Shown here: positions 3,870-25,627 of the stretch, piece by piece
How the letters are laid out: each line of letters starts with the position of its first letter
Numbering within the stretch: position 1 is the first letter of the stretch
From: a virus
Reading direction: 5' to 3' (one strand)
Length of the DNA: 31,523 nt
Virus record (IMG/VR): IMGVR_UViG_3300031857_000872
Span: 1 to 31,523 of that record
The notes under the pieces: model-generated
Databases searched by the model: none
Told to the model about the DNA's origin: nothing
Seen by the model: the letters and a program-made list of their open reading frames with translations, nothing else
Program-made: the position numbers and the translations under genes

Positions 3870-4393
3870 TAGTAATTACTGCTGGACACCACAACAACGA
3901 TCCTGGTGCTATATCAAACGGATTTATGGAATCCGACTTAACAAAGCATTTAAGAGAAAAAATATCAAGTTATATTTCACCAAAATACAAAGTCGTTAAA
4001 GACCAAGATTCTTGGACACTATCTCAAACAACATCCAATATTAAAACAGGTAGTGGTAGTGTAACTTTTGATATACACTTTAATGCAGGAAGTCCAAGTG
4101 CAACTGGGACAGAAATATTTGTTCCAGAAAACGCAACACCCAATGAGTTAAAAATTGCACATAAAATAGGTTTTGGTGTTTCAAAAGCTATTGGAATAAA
4201 ATATCGTGGATTAAAATTTCCTCAAGAATCGCAAAGAAAAACTCTTGGTATATTTAAGTTTATCGGAATAAACATGCTTATTGAAGTTTGTTTTATTACA
4301 AACAAAGATGACCTTGATAAATATTTTCATTCCATAGAAAGTGTAGCAAAATTAATTGCTGAAGTATTGATGGAAGCCGATGACTTACATTAG
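3866..4393 (+). CDS. N-acetylmuramoyl-L-alanine amidase (endolysin), Amidase_3 type, 175 aa
   Basis: The enzyme cuts the amide bond between N-acetylmuramic acid and L-alanine in peptidoglycan at lysis. Visible motifs follow the zinc amidase_3 fold: T-A-G-H-H-N-N-D-P-G-A near the N-terminus (first zinc His8), E22 in M-E-S-D-L-T as the likely second ligand, D-I-H-F-N-A with His71 as third ligand, and I-E-V-C-F-I-T-N with catalytic Glu140. ATG 3866 is chosen because the catalytic domain begins right there (MIVITAGH) and because it overlaps the preceding stop as ATGA; an ATG at 3842 would add eight residues inside the small gene. There is no signal peptide and no cell-wall binding domain, so release depends on the upstream holin. 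A strong terminator follows. Confidence 0.9.
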   Translation: MIVITAGHHNNDPGAISNGFMESDLTKHLREKISSYISPKYKVVKDQDSWTLSQTTSNIKTGSGSVTFDIHFNAGSPSATGTEIFVPENATPNELKIAHKIGFGVSKAIGIKYRGLKFPQESQRKTLGIFKFIGINMLIEVCFITNKDDLDKYFHSIESVAKLIAEVLMEADDLH

Positions 4394-4980: not shown

Positions 4981-5579
4981 GCGAATATGATTTTTCCAAA
5001 ATGGATATGCGCATAGACTTGATGTCTGATAGCGATGATCCATATTTTAAAAACCAGTTATTTCAAAAGTATTCAGAGTTTAATGCTATTGTTCCCCTAC
5101 ACAGGAGAAAGGTATTAAAGTACATTATTGGAGTTTACGATAAGAAAAGTCCATTAAGAACCTCTGATATAATGAAAACAAAGATACTGGCTGCGGAGTT
5201 GGCTGGTTTTAAAAGAACCTCAAACAGATTTGAAAGGCTTGTAGATGCCATGATGATGTGTGAGATTGAGCAAATAAACGCAATGATAGTTAGGTATGTT
5301 TCAATACAAAAAGATGTAACATATCAAAAGTATTGCATTTTACAAGAAGCGTATGCAAGAGCAGGTAAGGAGATTTTAGATGGAGCCACAAAGGACATTA
5401 ATCAGTTTACCAAAATTGAAGATGAACTAACAGCAACGCAAGATGAGTTAGTGCAGAACGACAACTCTGAAAAAATTAAACAGGAATTGTATAGATTTTA
5501 TTTAGAGGATAGAGTAGAGTTAAGACCAGAAGAAATAGCAGCTAAACTAAAAGAAAACCCAAATGAGCTTCCTTGCTGA
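4971..5579 (+). CDS. Unknown protein upstream of TerL, possible small terminase subunit, 202 aa
   Basis: ATG 4971 gives MDLSEYDFSKMDMRIDL...; an earlier in-frame TTG at 4941 lies deep in the spanin-like gene and is less likely. The chain is helical and charged. It has a central stretch (T-S-D-I-M-K-T-K-I-L-A-A-E-L-A-G-F) that could be a helix-turn-helix and a long helical C-terminal half rich in E, K and Q. It overlaps the spanin-like gene by 10 bases and TerL by 17. Small terminases commonly lie just before TerL and have a DNA-binding N-terminus with an oligomerising helical core, so this role is plausible but rests on position. Confidence 0.45.
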   Translation: MDLSEYDFSKMDMRIDLMSDSDDPYFKNQLFQKYSEFNAIVPLHRRKVLKYIIGVYDKKSPLRTSDIMKTKILAAELAGFKRTSNRFERLVDAMMMCEIEQINAMIVRYVSIQKDVTYQKYCILQEAYARAGKEILDGATKDINQFTKIEDELTATQDELVQNDNSEKIKQELYRFYLEDRVELRPEEIAAKLKENPNELPC

Positions 5580-7899
5580 TTTAATAGCAAAATACCCAGA
5601 ATTGGATGTTAATGTTCTTGTAGATTACAAGAAGGAGGATTCTCATGTAGTATTGAACCAAGATGACCCAGATTTACATCCTATATGGATTAAACTTCCG
5701 GCTCCTAATAAACCTTGGAAAGTACACACCATAGAAAACAATTTTGCTACAATTCAAATGCCTGATTACCACGAAATGGTAAACTTTGGATTACCTGCAA
5801 AAGAGCAGTTCTTTCAAAGGGAGGTTGTACCTGCAAGGCTTGAAGCTTTAATCAAAAAAAATGACAATAACCCAGATTTAATATGGCCCGTTCTAAAAAA
5901 CGATTCAGCATCTTGGTTTGATGAAATAAATTGGATAAAGAAAGTTATAAGAACTGGATTTACTGGCCAATGGCAATGGATAAAAGGCAAACCAACATAC
6001 CTTGATGGATGGCACTATGAGTACATAAACTTTTGGAGGTTTGCAGATAACAAGTCACCAGACTATCGCGATAAAGATAGGAGATGGTATCACTCGCTTC
6101 GGTATGTTTACACGACTACCGAATTTCCTGTTATTGAAAACGGTTATGTTATTTACGAAGATGAAAAGCTTAAAAAAGCTAAGATGAAATCTTACGGAAA
6201 CAGAACCATGATTGGATATTTGTACCCAAAGGGCCGAAGGGATGGAGCGACAAACAAACACTTATGCGCCCAGTACATTGAAACCAGAAGAAGATTTGGT
6301 GTTCACTCTGGAATCATGGCCGATACAGGAACAAAGGCTTTGGAGTTATTTGCAACCATATCTGTTCCTGGCTGGAGAAGTCAAATGTTTTTCTTTAAAC
6401 CAATGACATCAGCTTATGATGACCCATCAAAGGAATTACATTTTAGACCTCAAACATCTCAAAAGGTTACAAACCAAAAGCAAAGAGATGAAAACAAATC
6501 AATTGCCCTAAGGTCAAGAATTACATATTCAGACAAAGCAAGTGGAGCGTTCTATGATGGTCTTAAAATGTTTTGGCTTGATGTGGATGAGGCTGGTAAG
6601 ACAAAAGAGGTTGAGGTAGATGAAAGACACAAAGTTTTGGTTCCATGCGTAGCGCAAGGAAACAGGGCTGTAATTGGTGGTTTACTTGGTTACCCATCAA
6701 CAGTAGGTGAAATGGAAAAGAAGGGCGGTATGGCTTACTTTAGGCTGGCCAAACTTAGTCACTGGCAATACAGAGATATTACGGGCCAAACAGCATCGGG
6801 CCTAATGAATTTTTATTTCCCCTCTTACGATGGTTTGGAGGGTTACATTGATGAATATGGAGATACTGTAATAGAAACACCAGAAAAGCCTATTAGGGGT
6901 ATAGATGGCAAGTTGATACGAATAGGTTCAAAAGATGCGCTATTGTCAAAAAGAAGGGCATTGCTTGATGCGGAAGATATTGAGGCGTACAACGAAGAGG
7001 TTCGTTTATTTCCTATCAGATTTAGAGAGTGCTTTAGGTCAAAAGATGGTGACATAGGATTCAATACTAAAAAGATAGATGAAAGAATTGATGAGTTGAG
7101 ATTCATCAAGGAGCCATTGGGAGTAAAAGGTAACTTCAAGTGGAGAGATGGCGTGAAAGACAGCATAGTTGTTTTTGAGGAGGATTCGGAGTTTGGAAGA
7201 TGGTATATAACAAAACTAAACCCTAACAGCAACAAAAGATATTTGGATGGCGATATATGGAGGCCAGACCCTCTTTATGAAGATATTTACACGCACTCCG
7301 CTGACCCATTCAAAGCAAACAAAGTTCAAGGCAAAAGACTGTCTTTGGGTGGTGGTTCAGTATTTTTAAATTTTGATGAAGAACTTGATGGTAAAAAGCC
7401 TATCAAAGATTGGAGTTCATTTACAACAGTTGCGACATACCTACACAGGCCACCAACATTACCAGAGTTTTGTGAAGACCAATTGATGGCATGTTTGTAT
7501 TACAACTGCAAATCATTTCCAGAGATAGATGTTGCTGCTGTATGGACCCATTTTGAAGAAAGAGGTTATGGTGGATTCATGAAATATGATATTGACCATA
7601 GCACCAAAAAGATAAAAAACACCCCTGGATTCACTTCAAGGGGTAGTCAGCAAAAACTTTTTAACACTTTGAGGGATTATTTTGAAAAACACTCTCATAG
7701 AGAAAAACATTTAATTTTTTTAACTCAAGCAAGAGAGGCTCAAGGCTTGGAAGACTTTACAAATCTGGACTTATTGGTAGCTGGAGGAGGAGCAATTATG
7801 GGTTCAAATATTGTGTATGAAACTGAAGCTCAAAAAAGGTCAAATGAAAAAATTAAAACCAATGGCGTTCAATTGTTTACAAAAAAAAGATATTCTTAG
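5563..7899 (+). CDS. terL: Terminase large subunit, 778 aa
   Basis: This is the DNA-packaging motor: an N-terminal ATPase and a C-terminal RNase H-like nuclease. A Walker A-like loop is seen at residues about 223-231 (K-G-R-R-D-G-A-T-N). Walker B, F-W-L-D-V-D-E, is at 337-343 with catalytic Glu right after the Asp. In the nuclease half, S-A-D-P-F near residue 580 supplies an acidic residue, and the segment from E-D-Q-L-M-A-C-L-Y-Y to W-T-H-F-E-E-R-G-Y-G-G matches the usual 'E.N..G' nuclease region. The length suits large TerL proteins such as those of crAss-like phages. The Walker A loop lacks the standard GK(T/S) lysine. The portal follows from a separate promoter, 24 bases after the stop. 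Confidence 0.85.
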   Translation: MSFLADLIAKYPELDVNVLVDYKKEDSHVVLNQDDPDLHPIWIKLPAPNKPWKVHTIENNFATIQMPDYHEMVNFGLPAKEQFFQREVVPARLEALIKKNDNNPDLIWPVLKNDSASWFDEINWIKKVIRTGFTGQWQWIKGKPTYLDGWHYEYINFWRFADNKSPDYRDKDRRWYHSLRYVYTTTEFPVIENGYVIYEDEKLKKAKMKSYGNRTMIGYLYPKGRRDGATNKHLCAQYIETRRRFGVHSGIMADTGTKALELFATISVPGWRSQMFFFKPMTSAYDDPSKELHFRPQTSQKVTNQKQRDENKSIALRSRITYSDKASGAFYDGLKMFWLDVDEAGKTKEVEVDERHKVLVPCVAQGNRAVIGGLLGYPSTVGEMEKKGGMAYFRLAKLSHWQYRDITGQTASGLMNFYFPSYDGLEGYIDEYGDTVIETPEKPIRGIDGKLIRIGSKDALLSKRRALLDAEDIEAYNEEVRLFPIRFRECFRSKDGDIGFNTKKIDERIDELRFIKEPLGVKGNFKWRDGVKDSIVVFEEDSEFGRWYITKLNPNSNKRYLDGDIWRPDPLYEDIYTHSADPFKANKVQGKRLSLGGGSVFLNFDEELDGKKPIKDWSSFTTVATYLHRPPTLPEFCEDQLMACLYYNCKSFPEIDVAAVWTHFEERGYGGFMKYDIDHSTKKIKNTPGFTSRGSQQKLFNTLRDYFEKHSHREKHLIFLTQAREAQGLEDFTNLDLLVAGGGAIMGSNIVYETEAQKRSNEKIKTNGVQLFTKKRYS

Positions 7900-7923: not shown

Positions 7924-10284
7924 ATGTCCGATAATTTAATGTCATTACACGATGATGAGAAGATAAGAAACTCTGTTACTTCAAAAGTTGAACCAACTGA
8001 TGATGTTAGTCCAGAGGTAAAAAAAGAAGCACCATGGTGTATAGCTTGGGCAGAGGCCATATACGCTAAGTTTCTATGCAACCAATCTTACACCTCTATT
8101 GAGCAAATAAGAAGGATGGAAGAATTAAGGCTTTATGGGGCTGGTGCGCAACCAAGAGATAAATACATGGATATTCTCATTGGCGGAGTAAATGAAAACC
8201 CAAATAGGGAAGGATATTACAATGTTGACTGGGAAATATTCTCTCCTATGCCTGCCTTCAAAAGAAAGGTAATGGGAAGGCTTGAAACACAGGACCACAA
8301 AATCAGAGTAAGTGCAGTTGATTCGCTTAGTGGCGAAGAAAGAGAGAACATGATGTGGGATAACTGGTTTGAATCTCAATACGGAGGACTGGTACAGCAG
8401 ATTCAAGAGATGGCAGGTATTCAGCCAATGGCAGAACCTAAAAAATACATTGCAGAATCAATGGAAGAACTTGAAGCATTCAATAGTGTTGGAGGTTTTA
8501 AACTCAAGCACGAAATTGACATGGAAAAAGCTATTGAGTACACAGAATATGTTTCAGACTTCAAGGAAATCAAGAGAAAGCTTATCAGCGACTTGGTTGA
8601 TATTGGTTGTGGAGCATACAGGGATTTTATTGATGTTGATGGCGTTGAAAAATATGAGTATGTTGACTTTGCGAGATTAATTATTGACTACGATAGAGAA
8701 AACTCGTTTAAGAAAAGTAGATTTTGGGGTTACTTAAAATTCTATACAATATCTGAGGTTAGATCATGGAGGCCAGACCTTCCAGAAAAGCAATTAATGT
8801 CATTGGCAAGAACATTTGCAAACAGACTTGGTAATCCTATATGGACTTGGGATTTTCAGAATGTAGTTGACTATCGTGACCCAATAGCAAACGCTTACAT
8901 CTACGACAATTACAGGGTTGCGGTGCTTTTATGTGAATGGCAGTCAATTGACTACAATTACAAAACACTTAGAAAGACAAAATACGGAACAGAGATTTAC
9001 GCTAAATCAGAGCATGGTCAAGTGCTAAATTCTGACAAGAAAAAAACTAAGGTAACAACGGTTCCAAACATTTATTTCTGCGATTGGATTGTCGGTACAA
9101 ACGAAACATTAAGACATGGACAGCAATATGATATACCGAGGTCTGGTAAGAAAAGAACACCAAGACTTTCGTTACACGCATACGCATTGCCAGGCAAATC
9201 AATTGTAGAATCTGGAAGAAATAATCTTGACCAAATACAATTAGCGTTTTTAAAGTTACAAAACGCATTGGCCATGGCTTCACCAGCTGGTTTGGAAATT
9301 GAAATTACCGCGTTGAATAATATCAACCTTGGGGATGGGGAGTTAAAGCCGATAGATTTAATCAACCTTAAAAGAGCAACGGGTGATGTTGTGTACAGAG
9401 CAACTACGCATGCAGGAAAGTATAACGCACCAGCAGGAAAACCAATCGGTAGGTCTGAAGGTGGAATTGGTGGCTTATTAAATGAAATTGTTCAGATATT
9501 TGAAATCAATTTCCAGTTCCTTTCAGAACTTACAGGTATTGACCGAGTAAGTGCAGTTGCACAAAAGAGTGGCGAATCAACAGCCACAGAAGCCAAGCTT
9601 TCGGTGGCAGCTACTTCAGATAGCGTTCAGCCAGTTTATGCAGCTTATACCACACTAAAAGAAATGGGAGCCAAAAACGCTTGTGACAGAATACAGATTC
9701 AAATTAAATACGGAGATGGCTACGATGTTTACTACCCTGTTATGGGTAAGTCATCAATGGAAATGTTTAAGATTTCAAAAGAATCAGCTGACAGGGTTTA
9801 TGGATTAAAAGTTGAAGCATTGCCTTCAAACGAGTTTAAGAACATAATCCTACAAGCAGCAACCGAAGCTCTAAAGCCTGGTAAAGATGGTGAGAACATT
9901 TCTTATGCAGATTACTTGATGATTGTAGGTATGATAGACAAGGGTATGCTCAAACAAGCACAAATGGTATTGAGTTTCAGACTTGAAAAGAGGAAGAAAC
10001 AAGCATTGCAGTTGCAAAGAGAAAATATAACTTTACAAGCACAACAAACACAAGAACTTGAGCAAATGAAGTTCAAAAAAGAGTTGGTTTTGGAACTTGT
10101 AAAACACATGAGTAACAAAGAATTAGCAAACGACCAATCTTACAATCAAATGAAACAAGCATTGGTTCAAGGCTTTGTTTTGCCTATGCTCATGCCTCAA
10201 CAACAAGGACCGGAAGGAGGTCAAGAAATGCCTCAAGAAGATCAACAGCAAGCACCACAAGAACAGTTAGAAATGCCTCAATAA
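7924..10284 (+). CDS. Portal protein, 786 aa
   Basis: Portals form the dodecameric DNA gate at one capsid vertex. The call rests on position (between TerL and scaffold/capsid genes), length (near that of crAss-like portals) and layout. There is an N-terminal helical region with W-C-I-A-W-A-E-A-I-Y, then a clip and wing region, then a long helical part with E-L-T-G-I-D-R-V-S-A near residue 540, a common portal motif ('lsGi...'). A coiled, Q- and K-rich barrel segment lies at about 680-740. The C-terminus is a Q/E/P-rich tail with repeated 'M-P-Q', 'M-P-Q-E' and 'Q-Q-Q', probably disordered inside the capsid. It has its own promoter, and the scaffold-like gene follows from another. Confidence 0.8.
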   Translation: MSDNLMSLHDDEKIRNSVTSKVEPTDDVSPEVKKEAPWCIAWAEAIYAKFLCNQSYTSIEQIRRMEELRLYGAGAQPRDKYMDILIGGVNENPNREGYYNVDWEIFSPMPAFKRKVMGRLETQDHKIRVSAVDSLSGEERENMMWDNWFESQYGGLVQQIQEMAGIQPMAEPKKYIAESMEELEAFNSVGGFKLKHEIDMEKAIEYTEYVSDFKEIKRKLISDLVDIGCGAYRDFIDVDGVEKYEYVDFARLIIDYDRENSFKKSRFWGYLKFYTISEVRSWRPDLPEKQLMSLARTFANRLGNPIWTWDFQNVVDYRDPIANAYIYDNYRVAVLLCEWQSIDYNYKTLRKTKYGTEIYAKSEHGQVLNSDKKKTKVTTVPNIYFCDWIVGTNETLRHGQQYDIPRSGKKRTPRLSLHAYALPGKSIVESGRNNLDQIQLAFLKLQNALAMASPAGLEIEITALNNINLGDGELKPIDLINLKRATGDVVYRATTHAGKYNAPAGKPIGRSEGGIGGLLNEIVQIFEINFQFLSELTGIDRVSAVAQKSGESTATEAKLSVAATSDSVQPVYAAYTTLKEMGAKNACDRIQIQIKYGDGYDVYYPVMGKSSMEMFKISKESADRVYGLKVEALPSNEFKNIILQAATEALKPGKDGENISYADYLMIVGMIDKGMLKQAQMVLSFRLEKRKKQALQLQRENITLQAQQTQELEQMKFKKELVLELVKHMSNKELANDQSYNQMKQALVQGFVLPMLMPQQQGPEGGQEMPQEDQQQAPQEQLEMPQ

Positions 10285-11430: not shown

Positions 11431-12984
11431 ATGAAAAATTTTAAATTATTATATTCTTTGGTAGTTGCATTCATGGTGAGTGCTGCACTATCATCTTTTG
11501 CGGAACCATCTATGCAAGTAAGCTTGTTTGGTGGATTATTCGCTATGTTGGGATTCGGAACTTTGGTTTTGAGTTCATCTTCTAACTTGTCTGGTTTAGC
11601 TTTTACCACTTTAGGTGCTGCTGTATCTGGTCAAGATTACTACGCTAACTATATTACCACTTTGGACTTACAAGCTCGTAAAGTATTACCTCAATTGACC
11701 CGTAGATACGGTTCTCAAGGTAAAGAGTTTTTTGACACTATTCGTGCTTTAGGTTTTGAAAGAGTTGATGGTATTCAAACTATTGAACACTATGAAGAAG
11801 AGTGGATTTGGAATAACTTTGCTATTGCTTCTCAAACTGGTGCTGGTACAAACACTGGTACATTTGTTTTGGCTGCATCTGCTTTAGACCCAAATAGCAA
11901 ATTCTTCCCTCAAGTTGGTAACACAATCATTTTAGCAGGTGATATTCCTGCGAGTATCATTAGCATCACTGGTGCTGGAACTTCAACAGTTACTTTAAGT
12001 GTTGTAACTCACGATACTAATGATTTGATTCCTACTGTAGCTGCTGGTCAAGAATTATTCATCGCTTCAAGTGTTGCCGCTGAAGGTTCTGGTCAACCAG
12101 GTAGTATCATCTCTGGTATTATCTCTTGGGCCAACAAAACCCAAACTATCAAATCAACAAGAGTTGCATCAGGAAGGGAATTAAGTACCGAATCTTGGAT
12201 TAAAATGGTTGGTTCTGACAAAGTTGAATCTTGGGCAAACAAAGGTTTCTTGGATTTAGAGTACGAACAACAATTAAAAATTCAAGGTGCTTTCTTGTCT
12301 GGAAAACAAATCACAAATACAGGTATGATTATCAACGGACAATCGTTAGTTGGTGAAGGTACAAGAGGTTTGTTACCAGAATTGAACAGCTATGCTATTC
12401 AGTATGGTTACACTCCTGGTACTTGGGAATTACAAGATTACTACAACATGGTTAAAGCTATGAAGAAGCAATACACCAATCAGTTTGTAGCTTTATTCTG
12501 TGGTTTAGAGTTCGGTCAAGAGCAAGACCAAATGTTATTTGAAGCCAACAAAGATACTGCTGTTGTTTATGCTGAAAGAGCTAAAACTGCATTATTTGGT
12601 GCTGGTGATGATGGCAGAGAAATGGATATGCACATTGGTTTCAAATACCTACATGTTGATGGATATACATTCTGTATCAAAAACATTGATTCATTCTACC
12701 ATCCTAAATTGTACGGAACAAGCGGTTACAACTATGTACAAAGAGGTATGGCTATTCCGTTACAACGCTACAAAGATCCAATAACTAAGAATAGTATTCC
12801 TTCTATTGGAGTTGTTTATCGTGGATTAGGTAAATACAATCGTAAAATGAAAGTATGGCAAACAGGTGCTAACGCAGATGTTCCTACTGATGACTTTGAT
12901 GTAAAAAGAGTGAACATGTTAACTGAAATGGCTGGTGAATTTTTCGCCACAAACCAAATGGTTAATATCATTCCTAACTCATAA
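11431..12984 (+). CDS. Major capsid protein, 517 aa
   Basis: The call rests on position after portal and scaffold, on length near that of crAss-like capsid proteins, on regular codon use suggesting high expression, and on a strong terminator right after it. The mature part seems to begin near S-G-Q-D-Y-Y-A-N-Y (about residue 66) and runs to E-M-A-G-E-F-F-A-T-N-Q-M-V-N-I at the C-terminus, which suits an HK97-type fold. The first 50 residues are unusual. MKNFKLLYSL begins a perfect-looking signal peptide core with a possible A-x-A-like site at S-F-A/E, followed by a second hydrophobic Gly-rich stretch. Capsid proteins should stay in the cytoplasm, so this is odd (see findings). Later ATG codons (M15, M28, M39) are possible starts, but M1 is only four bases after the scaffold stop. 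Confidence 0.8.
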   Translation: MKNFKLLYSLVVAFMVSAALSSFAEPSMQVSLFGGLFAMLGFGTLVLSSSSNLSGLAFTTLGAAVSGQDYYANYITTLDLQARKVLPQLTRRYGSQGKEFFDTIRALGFERVDGIQTIEHYEEEWIWNNFAIASQTGAGTNTGTFVLAASALDPNSKFFPQVGNTIILAGDIPASIISITGAGTSTVTLSVVTHDTNDLIPTVAAGQELFIASSVAAEGSGQPGSIISGIISWANKTQTIKSTRVASGRELSTESWIKMVGSDKVESWANKGFLDLEYEQQLKIQGAFLSGKQITNTGMIINGQSLVGEGTRGLLPELNSYAIQYGYTPGTWELQDYYNMVKAMKKQYTNQFVALFCGLEFGQEQDQMLFEANKDTAVVYAERAKTALFGAGDDGREMDMHIGFKYLHVDGYTFCIKNIDSFYHPKLYGTSGYNYVQRGMAIPLQRYKDPITKNSIPSIGVVYRGLGKYNRKMKVWQTGANADVPTDDFDVKRVNMLTEMAGEFFATNQMVNIIPNS

Positions 12985-16072: not shown

Positions 16073-16692
16073 TGAATAAAAAAGAACTCATAGCGTTAAT
16101 ATCAGAAAGGCTAACAGGGGGAGATACTACTTCTGCTTCAAGAGGAAAGTACCATCCAGTTGTTATAGAAAAAACCATTGAGGTGGCTTATAATGATATT
16201 ATAAGATTAACAGTAGATCAAGCTATAAAAGAAAATAAATTGTTTAATACAGACCATTTAGTTAAGTCGTATTATTACAAACCAGTTATTGATATAAAAA
16301 GAAATCAATGGTATATTGAATCTGGATTTTCATTGGATTCAAAACTAATTAGGCAAATATCACAACCAAGAAACAGACAAGCAAATTTTGCCCTTATAAG
16401 CAATGTTTCTGAATTTATGTGGGATGAGTTAGATGTTACAAAAGTTGATTTCACCATTGGGGCAATGGTTGAAACAAAGAGGATTTATTTTGATGACCTG
16501 TTTCATCCTCAGTTCTTTGGAGAAGAGATTGGTGAAATTATGGTTAAAATGGTTCCTAACTTTGATGGCTTGTCTAACGAAGATGATGTTAATGTTCCAT
16601 TGGAAGTAATTATGGAAAGCGTTAATAGATTCTGGGATAGACAGAAAAAGGATGACCAAATTGATGACAACAACATTGAACAAGGCAGATAA
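16072..16692 (+). CDS. Tail ring / adaptor-like protein, 206 aa
   Basis: The N-terminus (MNKKELIALISERLTGGD) and the helix H-P-V-V-I-E-K-T-I-E-V-A-Y-N-D-I-I-R resemble the helical start of connector proteins in crAss-like phages. The rest alternates beta strands (W-Y-I-E-S-G-F, R-I-Y-F-D-D-L) with an acidic C-terminal helix ending I-E-Q-G-R. It overlaps both neighbours by one base in TAATG. I infer a ring protein beneath the portal; the evidence is gene order plus the helical pattern. Confidence 0.55.
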   Translation: MNKKELIALISERLTGGDTTSASRGKYHPVVIEKTIEVAYNDIIRLTVDQAIKENKLFNTDHLVKSYYYKPVIDIKRNQWYIESGFSLDSKLIRQISQPRNRQANFALISNVSEFMWDELDVTKVDFTIGAMVETKRIYFDDLFHPQFFGEEIGEIMVKMVPNFDGLSNEDDVNVPLEVIMESVNRFWDRQKKDDQIDDNNIEQGR

Positions 16693-17495
16693 TGAAACAT
16701 ACATGGGAACAAAATAATCAGGTAGAGCCTGTTAAAGAACAAGGTGCAGGAGTTACCTTGAGATATGTCGTATTATCTGCTTTAAACAGGGTAGGAGATA
16801 CGAGCATGCACTCATATAGACAATTGATGCAAATTGCAATTGAGTGTCTTAGAGATGAGATGAGAATGTTTAATGCTGTAGCACTTGAGGTGTTCTATGG
16901 CAAAGTAAATGAAGCAGGTATATTGCAGATGCCACCAGACTGCTTAAATTGGATTAAAATTGGTATTGAATTAAACGGCCAGTTGTACAATCTTGCAGTA
17001 AACAATGATATGGTACTAAACAGAGGCACAATGTGTGGCAATGATGTAAGAACCATGTTAAAGGGCGCATTTGGAGGCTTCTCTCCTACAGATGGGTTTT
17101 ACTATGCTGACCACTTTGCGCCATCAGGAAGATACCTTGGGGGTCTTTACGGTGTAGGTGGTGGTTTTGCTGCGCCAGTTTATCGCTGGGATAAAACATT
17201 GAAGAGATTTCAGATTAATGGAAGTTTGATTAATAGCGAAGTAATTGTTGAATATAGTTCTACTGGTATTAAGCCAGGTACTATTATTGAGAATGAGTTA
17301 ATTACGCCATTAAGAAACTACATAATTTGGCAAAGAATAGAAAACGACCCAAGGGTTGCAAGAAGTGAGAAGGATTCAAAAGAAAGGCAATACAATGAAT
17401 CAGTTGAGAGATTAAGGTCTTATGTAAACAGATTTACATTGAGAGAATTTTTAGATACTAAGTACAGACATGTAAAACAAGGTATTAAGCGATGA
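16692..17495 (+). CDS. Tail tubular / ring protein, 267 aa
   Basis: The sequence contains V-V-L-S-A-L-N-R-V-G-D-T-S-M-H-S-Y, then C-L-R-D-E-M-R-M-F-N, then I-L-Q-M-P-P-D-C-L-N-W-I-K-I-G-I. This is the pattern of podovirus tail tubular A-type proteins and crAss-like ring proteins: a helical adaptor, 'elnmf', then 'LP.Dyv....vg'. It binds between connector and nozzle. A Gly-rich insert (Y-L-G-G-L-Y-G-V-G-G-G-F) lies near residue 155. The C-terminus is helical and charged. Its TGA stop overlaps the nozzle start as ATGA, which fits co-assembly. This is the surest of the three ring-like calls. Confidence 0.65.
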   Translation: MKHTWEQNNQVEPVKEQGAGVTLRYVVLSALNRVGDTSMHSYRQLMQIAIECLRDEMRMFNAVALEVFYGKVNEAGILQMPPDCLNWIKIGIELNGQLYNLAVNNDMVLNRGTMCGNDVRTMLKGAFGGFSPTDGFYYADHFAPSGRYLGGLYGVGGGFAAPVYRWDKTLKRFQINGSLINSEVIVEYSSTGIKPGTIIENELITPLRNYIIWQRIENDPRVARSEKDSKERQYNESVERLRSYVNRFTLREFLDTKYRHVKQGIKR

Positions 17496-20400
17496 GCGTA
17501 GAACAAACAAATGATTTCTTGGCAGGTCTTGACCTTGAAAGCGATTTAAGGGATGTAGATGCTGGGTTTTACACCTACCTACTAAATGGTACAACCAATT
17601 CAACTTTTGCCCGTAATAAGGGTACTGCTGAATCTGTTGCATCCAATGTAAAAATAACAAGGTTCTGGAGTTACATTACCAAAACATACATTGACTTTGA
17701 GTTACCTACTGGAGTAAACAAATGTATTGCTGTTTGCAAAGACTTGAGGAATGATGCAATAATATTTTTTAACTATAACTCATTAGGCAATCACTGTATA
17801 TACAGGTATTGGCCAAAACCAGCAGGTATAGAGCCATTTATTGAAACATTGACTTACTTCCTAAAAACAGCAGGCGGTTTTAATACATGGGGTAATATTT
17901 TAAATTTTAGCGAAGAGAATAAAATCTACAACGCAAGAATTATGGAAACCGGAGAGTTGATGGAAGATTGGGAAAACATACTTCCAGAGCATCCCGTTTT
18001 TGGTAACTCAATTCCAGTTCAGTATTTATGGTTTACAGATGGCGTTAATCCACAAAGAAGATATAACCTATCTGACTTGTATTACATAGCAGATAACAAT
18101 TTTACATTTGACCAATATTGGATTAATGTAGCAAAACAGGCTCCACAAAAAAGCCCAGGAATACAATTGCAGTACAACCTAAATAGAGTTTCAAACTTTC
18201 TTTCGTATAAGCATTTTCAATTTAGGGTTAGATACAAATACAAGGATGGTGAATTTTCAAGTTTAAGTCCTATATCTGATATTAGCTTGTTGACAAAACC
18301 TGATATATTAGGAGTTGCTTTTGATAGGCCTGTTTATGGTGCTAATCCAGAAAATAATGAAATACTTGTTTTTAATAATGAGATAAACAGTATTCATCAA
18401 ACAGTAGTTGAAATTGAATTTTACTATAGAAATGGTAATGGGTCTTCATCAACAGGAACTACAGACCCTAATTGGTATAGATTTTTTATAGCCAAAAGAG
18501 ATCAGGGTTATTTTACTGATAGTAATTATTTTGCTTATTTTTATGGAAACGAAGCGACCACACCAATAAGCAATGTTGAAACAGATAGGTTATTTTATAC
18601 CGCACCATTAGTTGCAAGGCATCAAGAAATTGTTGATGATAATCAAGTGGTTTTTCTTGATATTACAGAAGGCCAAGATAGGGTTAATACTATTGCGGAG
18701 GTTACTTATGTAAAAGAAGAGTTTCAGACACCATATTTTCCAAAACAAATAATAACACCATTTGCACTTTATGGTTCGGATGGAAAATTGCAATATTCTT
18801 TTGGTGAGTATAATTCAGCTGTCGGTGCTGCAAATTTAAGGCCTGGAGATGTATTGTCTGGAACTGTCTCTGAGTGGCCATACCCATTCCAAATTATAAG
18901 GCCAATAGCTCCATTTATTTATGTTTACAATACATTAAACATACCATATACATACACAATTACATTTGCTGATATAGGTGATGTCAATCTTTTTATAGAT
19001 AATCTTTGCGCAGCACTTTTAGAGCAAACGGGATATACTTTTTTTAGAACTGGTGGTAATAAAATAGCCGCAAACCCTAAGAATGGTAAAATACTAATTT
19101 TTGCCGATGAAATAAGAGCAATGAATGGAACAATATATTCAGACCAACCAGGATTTGCAAGAAGTCCAACCGATTTACAAAGAGGGTTCAAGGAAGGTTG
19201 TACTCATAAAACAGGAATTATACATTACGACAAAGAAATGAGGCAGGGGGCGTTTGAACCATTCCCAGATATATACATCCCATTCATAACAGAAACATAC
19301 CCAAGGGATGATAGTTATAATCAAGTTGCAGAAACTTATGGGTTGAATTTTAAGATAAACACACCACCCCCAAGTTGGGCGAGTTATTATAAAATAGTTC
19401 ATAAGGGTCAGATACAGAAAACCGCATACTACTCTGTGACTAGAATGTTTTATAACGATACAACTGGATTGCTTGAGTTGGTTCTTGAATCTTACGACAC
19501 ATTCACAATAGGCGCACCAGCTTCAGCATCATCAAGTGGATTTAATGCTCATAACAGAGGTATAGCTGATTTTCCTAAAACAGATTGGAAAAACTGTAAA
19601 ATAAGATTTTTAACAGAAGCAATACAAGAGGACCAAACACCAAATTCGGTTAGAACTGTTATAGGTGGTTATATTCAATGTCAAATAACAGATGTGTTTA
19701 TTCAAAAAGTAGATAACACAAAAGATGTTACAGCGGTTTATATAAGTGATTTTGGCTATCCAAAATACAATATTGGACCAGGAAGTTTGGTTGAAATATA
19801 CCTTGAAAATTACGACCCAGTATATTTTGAATTGCCACTCATAGGAGAATCAAATGAGCCTCTTGGTAAAATTGTAGAAGTTGATGGTATTAGGCAATAT
19901 GATTTTGGAACAGATGTAACAACTTACTATGGAGATGTGTATAAAAGATTTAGAGCCATGCAAGCTTACAGAGAAAGGGCAAATAAACCATTTCCTTGGT
20001 ACATATATTTTATAGAAAGTTTTAGTATTTCAGATTGGTGGTACAGCGAATACACAGGAAAAGGTAGGGTTCAAGTTGAAACGCCAAATATGAAAAAACA
20101 AAGGCTAACAACTATGTTAAGGTGGACCGGTAGGCTTTTACAAAACACATTGGTAAATAATACAAATGTATTTGATGAAGGTAACTACGAAATACTATCA
20201 ACAAGATTTGGAGATATAGTGGGAGCAAGACAGGTGGGATATGTATTAAAAGTAATCATGTGGAATAACACACCTTCATTATATATCAAGAGAAGAGAAA
20301 TTCAGAGTTTAGATGGAAGCACCCAGTTGTCTGTTACAGATAATTTAATAGGCACTGTCAATTATTCCGAACAACCTTATGGCTCAAAGCACCCTGGTAG

Positions 20401-21199
20401 TGTAATTGCGATTGAAAGGTCTGTTTATTTTTACGATGTAATTAATAGATGTTTTGTAAGAAATGACCCTAATGGCTCTGATAATTTATCACTAAGAAAA
20501 GCACAAAGATTTTGGGTTAATTTGAGTGAAAACATAGCTGCCGAAAACATGGATGTTATAACAGGATATGATTCAGCTATGGGTTTAATCTATGTTACAG
20601 CAAGAGATAATAACGGAAATGGGGATAAAACCATTACAATATCTTACTCTGAAGCTAAAAACTATTGGAACGGATTTCATACATTTTCAAAAAGCATAGA
20701 AGGAGTTACAATTCCAATTGATATAATGGGCAATATTGGGTCAGAAATGGCTTGCTTCCTTAATGGAGAGGTTTGGGCAATGAACAAAGGAACAGACTTT
20801 TTGAATTTGTTTGGTAGTTCAGTTTTATTTAAAGCTGGAGCAGCAACAAACATGTCAAAGTCAAAAATTAAGATGTTTATGAATCATATTGTTAGAGCCA
20901 ATAGAAGATTAAACAAGTCAACACAATCAATACCAGATACAGATACAAATACGCCTGGAATGGCATCATACATACCAGGTGCTAAATATATTTATAAGGA
21001 AGGAGTGTATTACTCTGATACTAACAAAAACATTAATACATTTGGAGTACCTCAAAATCTTCAACAAGAATTAAATGGATTAGTACAAGGGCAATCATTA
21101 AGGGGTCATGCGTGCGATACAATAGTAGAGTTTGATGGCAACGAACAAGTAATATTAAAAAGTATAGGAATGGGCGTAATTCCGTCTGAAAAAAGCTAA
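17492..21199 (+). CDS. Tail nozzle / muzzle-like protein, 1235 aa
   Basis: A very large, mostly beta protein with no membrane segment. The N-terminus (D-F-L-A-G-L-D-L-E-S-D-L-R-D-V-D-A-G-F-Y) followed by 'A-R-N-K-G-T-A-E-S-V-A-S-N-V' and 'A-I-I-F-F-N-Y-N-S-L-G-N-H-C-I-Y-R-Y' matches the start of podovirus tail nozzle (tubular B) and crAss muzzle proteins, in which such beta-propeller repeats surround the DNA channel. Large size (T7 gp12 is about 800 aa, crAss muzzles are bigger) fits the latter. It directly follows the ring protein with an ATGA overlap, and the Thr-linker gene begins at the base after its stop. It probably forms the distal tail tube and may carry side fibres. Confidence 0.7.
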   Translation: MSVEQTNDFLAGLDLESDLRDVDAGFYTYLLNGTTNSTFARNKGTAESVASNVKITRFWSYITKTYIDFELPTGVNKCIAVCKDLRNDAIIFFNYNSLGNHCIYRYWPKPAGIEPFIETLTYFLKTAGGFNTWGNILNFSEENKIYNARIMETGELMEDWENILPEHPVFGNSIPVQYLWFTDGVNPQRRYNLSDLYYIADNNFTFDQYWINVAKQAPQKSPGIQLQYNLNRVSNFLSYKHFQFRVRYKYKDGEFSSLSPISDISLLTKPDILGVAFDRPVYGANPENNEILVFNNEINSIHQTVVEIEFYYRNGNGSSSTGTTDPNWYRFFIAKRDQGYFTDSNYFAYFYGNEATTPISNVETDRLFYTAPLVARHQEIVDDNQVVFLDITEGQDRVNTIAEVTYVKEEFQTPYFPKQIITPFALYGSDGKLQYSFGEYNSAVGAANLRPGDVLSGTVSEWPYPFQIIRPIAPFIYVYNTLNIPYTYTITFADIGDVNLFIDNLCAALLEQTGYTFFRTGGNKIAANPKNGKILIFADEIRAMNGTIYSDQPGFARSPTDLQRGFKEGCTHKTGIIHYDKEMRQGAFEPFPDIYIPFITETYPRDDSYNQVAETYGLNFKINTPPPSWASYYKIVHKGQIQKTAYYSVTRMFYNDTTGLLELVLESYDTFTIGAPASASSSGFNAHNRGIADFPKTDWKNCKIRFLTEAIQEDQTPNSVRTVIGGYIQCQITDVFIQKVDNTKDVTAVYISDFGYPKYNIGPGSLVEIYLENYDPVYFELPLIGESNEPLGKIVEVDGIRQYDFGTDVTTYYGDVYKRFRAMQAYRERANKPFPWYIYFIESFSISDWWYSEYTGKGRVQVETPNMKKQRLTTMLRWTGRLLQNTLVNNTNVFDEGNYEILSTRFGDIVGARQVGYVLKVIMWNNTPSLYIKRREIQSLDGSTQLSVTDNLIGTVNYSEQPYGSKHPGSVIAIERSVYFYDVINRCFVRNDPNGSDNLSLRKAQRFWVNLSENIAAENMDVITGYDSAMGLIYVTARDNNGNGDKTITISYSEAKNYWNGFHTFSKSIEGVTIPIDIMGNIGSEMACFLNGEVWAMNKGTDFLNLFGSSVLFKAGAATNMSKSKIKMFMNHIVRANRRLNKSTQSIPDTDTNTPGMASYIPGAKYIYKEGVYYSDTNKNINTFGVPQNLQQELNGLVQGQSLRGHACDTIVEFDGNEQVILKSIGMGVIPSEKS

Positions 21200-24100
21200 A
21201 TGGAAAATTTAACAAACAAAGTAATCTATGAGAATAACATTAATTTTGGTAATGAATGTTATTTGACCCATGCTGTACAAAGATTTATCAATACAGATAT
21301 AGGTCTAAAGTATTGGTATGAAATCGTGTACCTAAATACAGGCAAAAGCATTTTTTTAAATGATGCCCAAATAAAAATATTTACAATTCAAGACAATGTA
21401 AAAGTACACTTAGCGACTGTTTATGCTATGGGTGTTATCGGGTCAAAAGTTTCAGATTTTGTGCCTGATACGGTTATGGGTATTGACCCTTGTAGTTGCG
21501 AACCTTACATTCAAATACTACCAGAAAGCAATGTGGTTTGTCCTGCAATTGTAATTAACCACCACTACGAAGTTGAAGAAGATGTATTAGATTTTTATTT
21601 CTCTTCTGAAACAGAGTTGACTACTTTAGATTTGGTTATCTACCCAGACTTGGGAGAGCCAATTGAGTACGGAGAAATAGTTATTACAAATGGTACATGG
21701 CAAAAAGAAGGAATATTATACGGAACATACATGTTCTATTATAGCCCAGATTGTAGCTACAGAACTGTTGTTTCGGGTGGAATTAACCCAACAACTACAA
21801 CCACTACAACAACTACTATATGTAACATAGATGTGCTTGGAAGTATTGTAAGTCAAACAGTTATATTGTTTGAAAGCGACTATTTTGGCCCTTATAACAT
21901 TTCTTTTATATCTGAAAACGGGGAAACATCTTTTTACGAAAACCTTGATTTACCTAAAGTTTTTGATTTGGGTTCAAGTGTTTACGGAACATGGACATTT
22001 TCTATAAGTCCAGAGTGTTCAAGACAATATAATTACGAAAGAGTTACTACCACAAGTACAACTACAACAACAATAAATTGCTTATGTACTATTGGGTATA
22101 TCACATACTTCCCTTTTTATCCAACAGAAGATCCTCATAAAATATTTTTTGAAGATACATGCTTAGATAATAGGGCGTATAATATAACCTTTACGCCATC
22201 TGATGAAGGCGATGAAGAGTATTTTCCTAACACCATACTACCAGCTGAATTATATGTAAACGCGACTGATTACGGAGGAACTTACGAATTTACACCAGTA
22301 GGCCCTTATAGCGTTTGTGGTCCTGTAACTATAGAGGTTGCATCTCCAGAGCCACCATCAACAACATGCGCTCCAGATGAATTGGAATATGCAATATTTG
22401 ATAATTTCCAAAATATGGTAATTAGCGGGAGTCCATCAGTATTTCAGCAAATATTATCTCCATCTAACATTATTTATGAATCTGTATTTTTACCAATTAC
22501 AGTTCCGTATGAATCTGGAACATGGATTTTTATAGGCGAATCAAATCCATTATATCCAGTATGTGAATATGAATTAGAGGTAATATGTGTAGCCAACATT
22601 AGTTACACATATTTGGATGAAAAACAAATAAGAGTAACATCTCCAAATCCGGGTCCTTATGTAGTTGATGTGTACTACCCGGGCGGTGAAACAGAAAGAT
22701 TCACAAATGTAACTTTGCCGTTTACATTTGATGCCGATTTACCTGTAGATGGAAGTAGTTGGCAGTTTACTGCTTTTAATGGTTGTGGACAAACAATAAA
22801 TGTTCAAGCTACTACAACTACCACTACAACATTATTCTGTGATTGTGAGTTAGAATGGGCTATAAATCCAGTTGATTATATGGATGGTACTGATGTAATA
22901 TTTACAAGTGCATGTCCAGGAAGATATTGGGATGTTTACAAGCCTGGAAGTCCAACATCTTACAATTGGACAAATGTTCAATTACCATTCTTGTTTACAA
23001 GTTCAGCATACTGGGGAACATACATATTTACACCAAAAAGTCCTTATGCGGGATGTGGTCCAATAACAGTTGTAATACCTATGCCAGTAACCACCACAAC
23101 AACATGCCCAGTTCAAGTAATTGATTATGTTATGGCAGATGATTTTGAAAGCGTAACATTTACAGCTGGAAGCCCATATACTGAATTCTTACAAGTTATA
23201 AGTCCAAGTGATGAAATTTATGAATTTGTTACCATACCATTCACAGTGCCATACGAAGCAGGAGATTGGTTATTCTTATCACCAACAGGATGCGAATACA
23301 CTATAAATGTAGGGTGTGATAAATTAGGATTATCGTGCGAATTGCTTCCAAACAATCAAGTTCAAGTAAATGTAAATATACCGGGTATTTATGAGGTAGA
23401 GATATTTATTACACCGGGGGGACCTACTTATATTATACCAGTAAAACAATTACCAGGTATTGTTGATATGTTAAATTACTCTCCATTTGGAACATGGACA
23501 GTAAGACCTGCGGATGGCCCTGGATGCGAAGAGGTGTTTGTGCTTAGACCAGCATCTACAACAACTACTACAACAACCTGCCCTGCAAGTATAGATATTG
23601 TACCAACTTATTATCGCGCACCGGGTGACCCAATTAACTATGTGTTGTTTACGGGAACACCAAGCTTTTTCACTAAAATAATTTCACCAGAAACGGAAAC
23701 AGAATATAACAATGCCAATATTCCTTTGATGATAGATTTTGAGGCTGGCAACTGGAGATTCTATATAGGAAATTGCGAATACATAGTTTATGTTCCGGGT
23801 TCTTATACAACAACCACAACAACTACATCAACTACCACTAGCACGACATTGTGTCCACCAGAAGTGTTTACATACGAGTGGGTTGACCAATACGGAAATC
23901 CATTTAACCCAGACAATAACAGAGCAATTCCTTATTTAAAAATAAATTGCCCTACTGCTTTAGTGCCAAGAACTTATAATGTTTCTGTAGCTGATACAGA
24001 AGAGGGAAGTCATAATTACGGACCTCAAATATTTACTTATGCAAATCCTGTAATAATTGCACCAGAAGATTGGTTCCCTGCTATGCAGCCATATTTGAAC

Positions 24101-24736
24101 TATTTAGCCGGAACATGGACATTTGAAAATGGGCCTTGCGAGTTTACATTAGTAGTTGATGGTCCGCCACAACCGACACCAACAACAACTACCACAACTT
24201 CTACAAGTACAACTACCACAACGACTTGTCCTCCAAACGCAATAACATGTACATTTGATTTGGCTAATGATTCAATGGAGTTTAATGGTACGCCTATTGG
24301 TCCTTTTGATGCAATATATGACCCTACAAACTTTAGGGTGGGAACTGGTATATTTTTACCATTCAACTACCCTTATACTGTGGCAGGTTTATGGACATTT
24401 ATATTAGGAAATTGCAGTTATCAATACGATGTTCCTGTGTTTATTAATGGCCCTTACGAAACTTCAGATGAAGCTTGTGCTACAGAAACCGTAGCTGTAA
24501 CGGAAGTGTTCGTAGATATAGATGTAAAGCTTACAGATTTGGATTTAAGAGCAAAATTCATTGGACATGACCCGTTGGTAATTTATTCTGATTCTACAGC
24601 AACCACCTACTACCCAGCAGGTTGGTACAGAACAAACGACCCTCTTTATCCAATAATTCAAGTAGATTCTTTTGGAAATGTAATTGCTTATGTAAATTGC
24701 CCCACAACTACAACTACAACAACAACAATTGAATAA
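21200..24736 (+). CDS. Large virion protein of repeated Cys-bounded beta domains joined by poly-Thr linkers, 1178 aa
   Basis: A unique N-terminal part (about 1-195) is followed by about ten domains of 70-100 residues, most beginning with Cys (C-P, C-x-C) and ending in a second Cys before 'x-Y-x-x-x-V'. Recurrent text includes P-Y-E-(A/S)-G-x-W-x-F and G-T-W-T-F. Linkers are runs of 5-15 Thr with occasional Ser. The end is N-C-P followed by eight Thr, I and E. Domains look like Ig-like beta sandwiches, perhaps stabilised by one disulfide each. Thr runs use mixed ACA, ACT and ACC codons. It lies between the nozzle and a glycosyltransferase gene. It is probably a long tail appendage or fibre reaching to the cell; mucin-like linkers would be stiff if glycosylated. 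Confidence 0.7.
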   Translation: MENLTNKVIYENNINFGNECYLTHAVQRFINTDIGLKYWYEIVYLNTGKSIFLNDAQIKIFTIQDNVKVHLATVYAMGVIGSKVSDFVPDTVMGIDPCSCEPYIQILPESNVVCPAIVINHHYEVEEDVLDFYFSSETELTTLDLVIYPDLGEPIEYGEIVITNGTWQKEGILYGTYMFYYSPDCSYRTVVSGGINPTTTTTTTTTICNIDVLGSIVSQTVILFESDYFGPYNISFISENGETSFYENLDLPKVFDLGSSVYGTWTFSISPECSRQYNYERVTTTSTTTTTINCLCTIGYITYFPFYPTEDPHKIFFEDTCLDNRAYNITFTPSDEGDEEYFPNTILPAELYVNATDYGGTYEFTPVGPYSVCGPVTIEVASPEPPSTTCAPDELEYAIFDNFQNMVISGSPSVFQQILSPSNIIYESVFLPITVPYESGTWIFIGESNPLYPVCEYELEVICVANISYTYLDEKQIRVTSPNPGPYVVDVYYPGGETERFTNVTLPFTFDADLPVDGSSWQFTAFNGCGQTINVQATTTTTTTLFCDCELEWAINPVDYMDGTDVIFTSACPGRYWDVYKPGSPTSYNWTNVQLPFLFTSSAYWGTYIFTPKSPYAGCGPITVVIPMPVTTTTTCPVQVIDYVMADDFESVTFTAGSPYTEFLQVISPSDEIYEFVTIPFTVPYEAGDWLFLSPTGCEYTINVGCDKLGLSCELLPNNQVQVNVNIPGIYEVEIFITPGGPTYIIPVKQLPGIVDMLNYSPFGTWTVRPADGPGCEEVFVLRPASTTTTTTTCPASIDIVPTYYRAPGDPINYVLFTGTPSFFTKIISPETETEYNNANIPLMIDFEAGNWRFYIGNCEYIVYVPGSYTTTTTTTSTTTSTTLCPPEVFTYEWVDQYGNPFNPDNNRAIPYLKINCPTALVPRTYNVSVADTEEGSHNYGPQIFTYANPVIIAPEDWFPAMQPYLNYLAGTWTFENGPCEFTLVVDGPPQPTPTTTTTTSTSTTTTTTCPPNAITCTFDLANDSMEFNGTPIGPFDAIYDPTNFRVGTGIFLPFNYPYTVAGLWTFILGNCSYQYDVPVFINGPYETSDEACATETVAVTEVFVDIDVKLTDLDLRAKFIGHDPLVIYSDSTATTYYPAGWYRTNDPLYPIIQVDSFGNVIAYVNCPTTTTTTTTIE
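21791..21817 (+). repeat. Poly-Thr linker 1 (9 codons)
   Basis: Nine consecutive Thr codons (mixed ACA/ACT/ACC) between the N-terminal domain and the first Cys-started domain of the 1178-aa protein. Confidence 0.9.
22046..22072 (+). repeat. Poly-Thr linker 2 (Thr with one Ser, 9 codons)
   Basis: Three Thr, one Ser, five Thr, followed by I-N-C. It separates beta domains one and two. Confidence 0.9.
22079..22810 (+). repeat. Three-domain super-repeat, copy A
   Basis: About 244 codons holding three consecutive beta domains: a C-x-C type ending in 'T-Y-E-F-T-P..P-Y-S-V-C-G-P-V-T', a C-A-P type with 'S-P-S-N-I-I-Y-E' and 'V-P-Y-E-S-G-T-W-I-F', and a third with 'P-G-P-Y-V-V-D-V-Y-Y-P-G-G'. The same three types recur in the same order at 22838-23557, so a large internal duplication is likely. 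Confidence 0.6.
22811..22831 (+). repeat. Poly-Thr linker 3 (7 codons)
   Basis: Seven Thr codons between the two super-repeat copies, followed by L-F-C-D-C. Confidence 0.9.
22838..23557 (+). repeat. Three-domain super-repeat, copy B
   Basis: About 240 codons matching copy A domain by domain: C-D-C type with 'G-T-Y-I-F-T-P-K-S-P-Y-A-G-C-G-P-I-T', C-P-V type with 'S-P-S-D-E-I-Y-E' and 'V-P-Y-E-A-G-D-W-L-F', and a third with 'P-G-I-Y-E-V-E-I-F-I-T-P-G-G'. A short poly-Thr linker at 23090-23104 lies between its first and second domains. The protein identity is clearly partial, so the duplication is old. Confidence 0.6.
23090..23104 (+). repeat. Poly-Thr linker 4 (5 codons)
   Basis: Five Thr codons before C-P-V; the shortest linker. 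Confidence 0.85.
23558..23578 (+). repeat. Poly-Thr linker 5 (7 codons)
   Basis: Seven Thr codons after A-S and before C-P-A. Confidence 0.9.
23807..23848 (+). repeat. Poly-Thr/Ser linker 6 (14 codons)
   Basis: Twelve Thr and two Ser over 14 codons, then L-C-P-P. The codons include TCA, AGC and ACG, so it is not a simple DNA slippage product. Confidence 0.9.
24182..24226 (+). repeat. Poly-Thr/Ser linker 7 (15 codons)
   Basis: Thirteen Thr and two Ser over 15 codons after P-Q-P-T-P, before C-P-P-N; the longest linker. Confidence 0.9.
24704..24727 (+). repeat. C-terminal poly-Thr tail (8 codons)
   Basis: Eight Thr codons after N-C-P, with only I-E before the TAA stop. A Thr run at the very end of a protein links nothing within this chain, so it is an exposed tail or the join to a lost domain. 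Confidence 0.9.
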
Positions 24737-24742
24737 TAAAAT

Positions 24743-25627
24743 ATGATATATGTAAGCGTACAGCCTGACAATGTTTACTTTCACTGGCAAGTAGAAGTTT
24801 GTTCAAAAAATCTTTTGTCTTGGGGAGCGAAACCCCAAGACATTCATGTAGTATGGATGATTAGCGGTTCGCCATCACCAGGGTTAGAAGCCTTGATGGA
24901 GAAGTTAACTGTAAGTCATTTTACATACCAACTTGAAGATGTAAAAGGATACTTGCCGGCGATAAAGCCACAAGGCATGAAACATCATTGTAAGCACTTA
25001 GGAGTGAAGAAGTTTTTCTTCCATGATTCAGACATCATTTTCCTTAAAAAACCAATGATAGACAATCTTTGTGCATGTGCTTGGCATAGTTCAGACTGTC
25101 GCTCTTACTTAGATTCTAAATACATCAAATCAAAAAGTGAAGAGCTGTTTGTTGGAATGTGTAATATCGTTGGGGTAAACCCAAGATTCATTGAATCTAA
25201 AGATGGTGTAGCAGGTGGAGCGCAATGGGTACTAAACAATACTACTCCAGAATTTTGGGAAAAGGTTGAAAAAGATTCAATTGCTCTTTACAAATATTGC
25301 TCAAGCTTTCCGTATGACACATCTAAGGGGCAGTATCCAATACAATCTTGGACAGCGGAAATGTGGGCAACTTTATGGAACGCTTTGGCTTACGGAAAAG
25401 AAGTCTGCATAACCGATTCAATTGATTTTACATTTGCTACAAGTAGCTACGAGCGGACAAAGAATGTGAAAATACTACATTTGGCTGGAGTAGTAGCACA
25501 AAACAAAGATAAAATGTTCTACAAGGGAGATTATACAAGGAAATCTCCACTTGGCGAAAACTTTGACCATTTAAGTAAAGATTTTGCTGCTTGGAGATAT
25601 GTAGAAGAAATGCAAAAAATAACTTAA
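24743..25627 (+). CDS. GT-A-type glycosyltransferase, candidate peptidyl Ser/Thr glycosyltransferase, 294 aa
   Basis: The N-terminus (M-I-Y-V-S-V-Q-P) opens a Rossmann-like fold. F-F-F-H-D-S-D-I-I-F-L-K-K-P at 91-104 holds the DxD metal/nucleotide-sugar motif (D95, D97). G-V-A-G-G-A-Q-W-V-L-N-N at 155-166 is the usual acceptor-side Gly-Gly segment. Q-S-W-T-A-E-M-W at 201-208 and I-L-H-L-A-G around His246 complete the pattern; the His could be the third metal ligand. The combination of DxD, Gly-Gly and W-x-x-E-M-W recalls eukaryotic peptidyl-serine galactosyl- and hydroxyproline arabinosyltransferases; this is recall, not a search. It starts seven bases after the Thr-linker gene. The substrate is unknown: linker Thr residues of its neighbour are the best guess, host surface glycan an alternative. 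Confidence 0.65.
   Translation: MIYVSVQPDNVYFHWQVEVCSKNLLSWGAKPQDIHVVWMISGSPSPGLEALMEKLTVSHFTYQLEDVKGYLPAIKPQGMKHHCKHLGVKKFFFHDSDIIFLKKPMIDNLCACAWHSSDCRSYLDSKYIKSKSEELFVGMCNIVGVNPRFIESKDGVAGGAQWVLNNTTPEFWEKVEKDSIALYKYCSSFPYDTSKGQYPIQSWTAEMWATLWNALAYGKEVCITDSIDFTFATSSYERTKNVKILHLAGVVAQNKDKMFYKGDYTRKSPLGENFDHLSKDFAAWRYVEEMQKIT

Follow-up and report, generated by a model that had tools for sequence, protein, structure and literature searches.

A family of predicted phage glycosyltransferases is paired with virion proteins that carry poly-Thr tags or linkers, and this pairing is general across many unrelated bacterial viruses. On sequence and structural models, it is likely that these enzymes O-glycosylate the poly-Thr tags and linkers, and the phages that bear them very probably sugar-coat their own particles. 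The pair from which the analysis set out, ORF A and ORF B, lies in the window, by which we mean the whole stretch of DNA analysed, a 31.5-kb fragment of one IMG/VR virus record.

The window and its virus

The window has a late structural gene order of terminase, portal and then virion proteins:

5563-7899, terminase
7924-10284, portal
11431-12984, virion structural protein
16692-17495, further virion protein
17492-21199, 1235-aa virion protein
21200..24736, + strand, ORF A, putative Thr-linker virion protein of 1178 aa and proposed acceptor (ORF call, segmentation, repeat fold)
24743..25627, + strand, ORF B, predicted GT-A glycosyltransferase of 294 aa, phrog_4417 (profile, AF2, Foldseek)

An Amidase_3 endolysin is encoded at 3842-4393, upstream of the structural genes. 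The earlier note on this DNA had called the virus crAss-like, which is not supported as stated. The terminase and portal are closest to those of Flavobacterium Elemovirus and Cellulophaga podoviruses (a distant 25-28% identity), the gene order is Elemovirus-like, and no crAss Pfam model matched the window, which is a genome fragment only. The virus therefore appears Elemovirus-like rather than demonstrably crAss-like. In Elemovirus a single short gene follows the large virion protein, whereas the window has ORF A and ORF B at this place. Terminase-based collection found no close relatives of the window.

ORF B has a predicted GT-A fold

ORF B had been described as a 294-aa GT-A-like enzyme with a D-S-D motif, a Gly-Gly segment and W-T-A-E-M-W. 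This description was confirmed, and the motif residues counted below are invariant in 150-151 relatives, W208 excepted in one:

25025..25033, + strand, DxD motif D95-S-D97; both Asp in 151/151 relatives; by analogy a putative metal/nucleotide-sugar site
25349..25366, + strand, W203-T-A-E-M-W208 family motif; W203 and M207 in 151/151, W208 in 150/151
25478..25525, + strand, H246-x-x-G249 ... K261; H246, G249 and K261 in 150/150 relatives

The Gly-Gly segment is GGAQ (residues 158-161), with G159 and Q161 invariant in the 151 relatives. The third element is reminiscent of the HxxG..K motif that GT8-type enzymes carry towards the C-terminus as a metal/phosphate site, and ORF B would have this element in common with them.

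ORF B matches phrog_4417 ("unknown function") over its full length (residues 1-293, E 5.3e-66). Its AlphaFold (AF2) model, made from an alignment of 32 sequences from the window and the collected loci, has a pLDDT of 95.8 and a pTM of 0.92. Foldseek matched the model to 169 PDB entries at E<=0.001. GT-A enzymes lead the list, with WbbM at E 2e-7, glycogenin at E 3.5e-6 and UGGT (catalytic domain) at E 1.1e-5; xyloside xylosyltransferase, Skp1 galactosyltransferase and GT6 enzymes are among the further matches. The model thus points with confidence to a GT-A fold glycosyltransferase, nearest to retaining enzymes of the GT8/GT24/GT6 type such as glycogenin. ORF B shares the fold and the DxD with glycogenin (GT8), UGGT (GT24) and GT6 enzymes, but differs from them in its low identity (9-16%), in TM-scores of only ~0.4-0.5 and in having no Pfam family match. 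Pfam and PDB sequence searches with ORF B gave nothing, and Pfam GT8 was matched neither by 13 members of the family nor by its longer relatives, whose Pfam matches lie in fused domains. Structure prediction gave a confident fold without GT8 membership by profile, and we found no characterised close homologue.

The earlier note had also seen kinship with enzymes that add sugars to hydroxyproline or Ser. This was not borne out, as the nearest folds are retaining ones and ORF B had no match to Pfam HPAT (PF23452) at E<=10, a model that was silent in the control genomes too, which makes this a weak negative. The W/DxD resemblance to HPAT/SGT1 is a loose one. What ORF B would share with plant and algal HPAT (GT95) and SGT1 (GT96) is the proposed chemistry, in which linker-type peptides receive a sugar on their hydroxyl-bearing residues. 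With a hydropathy maximum of 0.87 over 19 residues and no membrane-like segment, ORF B is soluble as judged by its sequence.

ORF A and its Thr runs

Six intergenic bases separate ORF A from ORF B. The ORF call and segmentation bore out the description of ORF A as a 1178-aa protein with seven internal Thr/Ser runs of 5-15 residues each and a Thr tail, the C-terminus being Thr8 followed by a final Ile-Glu:

21791..21817, + strand, Thr run 1, aa 198-206, T9
22046..22072, + strand, Thr run 2, aa 283-291
22811..22831, + strand, Thr run 3, aa 538-544
23090..23104, + strand, Thr run 4, aa 631-635
23555..23578, + strand, Thr run 5, aa 786-793
23807..23848, + strand, Thr run 6, aa 870-883
24182..24226, + strand, Thr run 7, aa 995-1009
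24704..24727, + strand, Thr tail, aa 1169-1176

An N-terminal domain of ~197 aa is followed by repeated beta domains of ~75-110 aa with the poly-Thr linkers between them. One repeat (~75 aa), modelled together with nine others, forms seven beta strands in AF2 (pLDDT 91), and a PDB search found no significant match to the fold. The runs use ACA, ACT, ACC and ACG in proportions close to those outside the runs. These mixed synonymous codons rule out a DNA microsatellite or slippage origin and indicate that the runs are maintained by selection on the protein. From its position between structural genes we infer that ORF A is a virion protein. Named phage records contained no relative of it; a homologue of 479 aa (37% identity over 279 residues of the N-terminal part), which has the ~197-aa domain too, is found in L002, the phage whose enzyme is closest to ORF B (53% identical).

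The enzyme foretells poly-Thr, but poly-Thr does not foretell the enzyme

Relatives of phrog_4417 type number at least 530 among 600 viral candidate stretches and occur in 74 named phage records. Starting from enzyme similarity only, we gathered 80 viral-contig loci and 44 genome loci in addition to the earlier loci, and defined a strict poly-Thr run as at least seven Thr/Ser residues with at least 60% Thr. A protein with such a run is encoded on the enzyme strand in 108/137 loci. The gene immediately upstream is poly-Thr in 74 of the 123 distinct loci that have an upstream gene, against a mean of 5.5 and a maximum of 13 when random genes from the same loci were drawn 2000 times. Of the 98 loci flanked by 3 kb or more on each side, 84 contain a strict run; a Thr-rich protein is present in 89 and was undetected nearby in about nine. 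The pairing also occurs in the cultured phages phiFL1A, 1706, Semele, MA9V-3, VPE25, iLp84, SA2, PT1-4 and TPWB06. The MTP (major tail protein) of Lactococcus phage 1706 has T10 at its end, and in iLp84, which like PLE3 is an enzyme-bearing Lacticaseibacillus phage, the major capsid protein and the MTP both finish with T7-Ser-Lys. In Levilactobacillus phage ENFP1 (L398:7374-7967), mucin-like (TTVAP)n repeats directly upstream of the enzyme replace pure poly-Thr.

In the reverse direction, we scanned for ten Thr codons and obtained 62 loci in which the poly-Thr ORF is real. The enzyme is present in eight of these, each time directly downstream, and whole-record searches of 40 of the other poly-Thr records added two more. 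The enzyme thus foretells poly-Thr, but the idea that poly-Thr implies the enzyme has to be rejected, as most poly-Thr phages are without it. A one-to-one pairing, whose absence the earlier note had named as a refutation of its proposal, is therefore not supported, in one direction only: the enzyme mostly comes with poly-Thr, but poly-Thr is common without the enzyme.

The frequency of poly-Thr linkers in enzyme-free phage proteins could mean that the runs are passive flexible linkers or tails and that the enzyme targets other sites on the same virion proteins, or DNA. The absence of glycosyltransferases from the 25 commonest Pfam families near enzyme-free poly-Thr genes fits with this. We nevertheless consider it very unlikely, as tags at the extreme C-terminus connect nothing and, as described below, homologous tail and capsid protein bodies are tagged only with the enzyme, which would not be expected of a generic linker.

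Tags and enzyme in homologous tail and capsid proteins

To avoid the bias of an enzyme-based collection, we also gathered loci by tail-protein similarity. In the first family of major tail proteins (MTPs; 71 distinct proteins), 15 have both a C-terminal tag and the enzyme, none the tag only, one the enzyme only and 55 neither (Fisher 1.7e-14). In the exception, L259, the enzyme has moved to a position directly after an 83-aa poly-Thr protein. A second MTP family, unrelated to the first, gave 18 with both, none with the tag only, one with the enzyme only and 24 with neither (Fisher 3e-11); the exception here, L393, has an apparently frameshifted MTP and a split enzyme. The major capsid proteins (MCPs) of the family-1 phages follow the same pattern, with 13 both, no tag only, one enzyme only (an incomplete capsid ORF) and 41 neither. 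Counting any poly-Thr protein across both MTP sets, 31/32 enzyme loci have one, against 2 of the 58 loci of 12 kb or more that lack the enzyme. Whole-record searches of 40 enzyme-free records found the enzyme nowhere, using the same model that did match enzymes in the reverse scan.

Without the enzyme, homologous tail proteins end untagged or in an extra domain. On the tail-protein tree the tag changes 8 times and the enzyme 9, with supported independent pairs concordant in ~4/4, although with four such pairs (p 0.125) the tree test alone is under-powered. Two enzyme-free loci, L284 and L319, have a Thr/Ser tail on the head-tail protein. The L284 tail (8486-8803, Thr10) possibly reflects recent enzyme loss or the action of another transferase.

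A single phage may have two or three non-homologous virion proteins tagged, and their final residues often agree; in one prophage the tag can be found on the capsid protein, the MTP and a head-tail protein of ~105 aa. The residues after the run are common to 13/32 same-genome pairs against 4.1 shuffled pairs, a comparison not corrected for kinship.

The earlier note had proposed that the phage glycosylates its neighbouring Thr-rich protein. The fold, the catalytic residues, the adjacency and the two MTP tests together favour this strongly, as indirect evidence.

Phage glycosyltransferases often modify host surface polymers. The enzyme might therefore alter teichoic acid, capsule or LPS against superinfection, its adjacency to poly-Thr being a cassette effect, and a role of this superinfection-blocking type has been proposed for another gut-phage glycosyltransferase (PMC8008677). 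We regard this as highly improbable for the present family. The enzyme appears soluble and sits among late structural genes. Its position shifts between MTP, MCP and small poly-Thr genes, always with a poly-Thr partner, and MTP and MCP tags occur only alongside it, even where the two are 2-3 kb apart.

Overlapping poly-Thr frames

MTPs from Staphylococcus Sextaecvirus and from Arcanobacterium phages terminate in ...TTTTTTTTP at ACT-CCC-TAA, and past the stop an overlapping +1 frame encodes a poly-Thr extension of 50-70 aa. In the Enterococcus phages Planchet and VPE25, the last part of the major capsid gene is overlapped by a poly-Thr frame in the -1 register, in Planchet with the classical slippery sequence C-CCA-AAA:

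L401:7117-7930, MTP end with +1 poly-Thr frame (Sextaecvirus/Arcanobacterium phages)
L400:7164-7926, MTP end with +1 poly-Thr frame (same group)
L397:~6508-7210, MTP end with +1 poly-Thr frame (same group)
L399:7742-7888, capsid-overlapping poly-Thr frame, Planchet
L012:~7700-7890, capsid-overlapping poly-Thr frame, VPE25

The MTP overlap is probably an SPP1-like +1 programmed frameshift that puts a long tag on some of the subunits, and the Planchet and VPE25 arrangement suggests a frameshifted capsid tag.

Fused and neighbouring domains

Some viral contigs encode the enzyme domain as part of a longer protein, joined to radical SAM-SPASM, methyltransferase or GT2-like domains:

L066:9986-11983, enzyme fusion of this set
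L085:9986-11968, enzyme fusion of this set
L073:9001-10644, enzyme fusion of this set
L023:4727-6271, enzyme fusion of this set
L087:9986-11740, enzyme fusion of this set

Genes downstream of the enzyme include GT2, GT4 and GT7-type genes and several methyltransferase families (Pfam). The fusions hint at more complex modified glycans. Taken together with these neighbours, they may mean that the enzyme starts a longer glycan, built by phage and host enzymes and given a phage-specific cap by the radical-SAM, methyltransferase and GT2 domains. We hold this extension of the preferred explanation to be possible though doubtful, as we identified no further glycan gene nearby in the window or in most prophage loci. 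Distant relatives of the enzyme also lie inside proteins of 656-1057 aa on actinobacterial and myxococcal MAG contigs (L132-L135), in L133 as a fusion with PF11397, a glycosyltransferase domain of GlcNAc type.

Discussion

We propose that ORF B is a soluble GT-A enzyme that would add sugar to the hydroxyls of Thr, and some Ser, in poly-Thr linkers and tails. Enzyme and acceptors would be produced from the same late operon. In the window the acceptor would be ORF A, with its repeated beta domains linked by tagged runs; other phages would use their major tail or major capsid protein, a head-tail protein or a dedicated short poly-Thr protein. By analogy, D95 and D97 would bind the metal and the nucleotide sugar, and the sugar would pass to the Thr hydroxyls of the runs during or before assembly. 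Transferases and methyltransferases, fused to the enzyme or encoded near it, probably lengthen or modify the first sugar in some relatives. Both the O-linkage to Thr and the identity of the sugar are putative. Glycosylation of this kind would give extended, protease-resistant, surface-exposed chains on the particle; the chains are likely to be stiffened, protected and hydrophilic, and roles in adsorption or shielding are possible.

We lean, though only slightly, towards a wider picture in which poly-Thr is a portable glycosylation tag. One undescribed glycosyltransferase family, in phages of Bacillota, Bacteroidota and other hosts, would put sugar on any tagged virion protein, fused radical-SAM, methyltransferase or GT2 modules would produce lineage-specific coats, and frameshifting would set the number of long-tag subunits in some phages.

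Low-complexity acceptors with a dedicated enzyme are known from bacteria. The serine-rich repeat adhesins of Gram-positive bacteria have cytosolic GtfA/GtfB encoded beside the hydroxyl-rich acceptor, and here too a dedicated transferase gene adjoins the gene for its proposed acceptor. GtfA/GtfB are GT-B enzymes acting on bacterial surface adhesins, whereas the present enzymes have a predicted GT-A fold and would act on virion proteins. An encoded transferase genetically tied to a tagged virion protein, as phage virion O-glycosylation would have it, is what we find.

In the earlier note such self-coating was thought to be new. Phage self-glycosylation as such is already known, as far as the cited account goes: mycobacteriophage capsid and tail-tube proteins carry glycans on their C-termini (Freeman et al. 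2023, Cell Host Microbe, as reported in PMC12619734), and related phages are reported to encode glycosyltransferases for virion glycosylation. This is the nearest precedent, and the tagged capsid and tail proteins described here resemble these. In contrast to what that account describes, the proposed acceptor here is a tag or linker of almost pure poly-Thr, in phages of Bacillota and Bacteroidota, and mycobacteriophage records contained no phrog_4417 relative at E<=1e-5. Phage MTPs and MCPs can bear Ig-like or carbohydrate-binding decorations, some made by programmed frameshift, with lactococcal 936 phages as an example (PMC6669499). These too are C-terminal additions to the same proteins, comparable to the +1 poly-Thr extension of Sextaecvirus, but the poly-Thr tag is tied to an enzyme gene. 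What appears new is that phages of Bacillota and Bacteroidota combine a poly-Thr tag with an enzyme of this family; the open-licence literature searched contained no report of the family or of poly-Thr virion glycosylation, which leaves novelty unproven.

If the proposal is true, the cultured phages that carry the pair are on hand for tests of self-glycosylation, and a soluble enzyme with a simple Thr tag as its recognition site would be useful for making defined glycoproteins in bacteria. The proposal would also give a function to a large "unknown" family of phage proteins and would explain why many capsid and tail proteins of phages end in poly-Thr.
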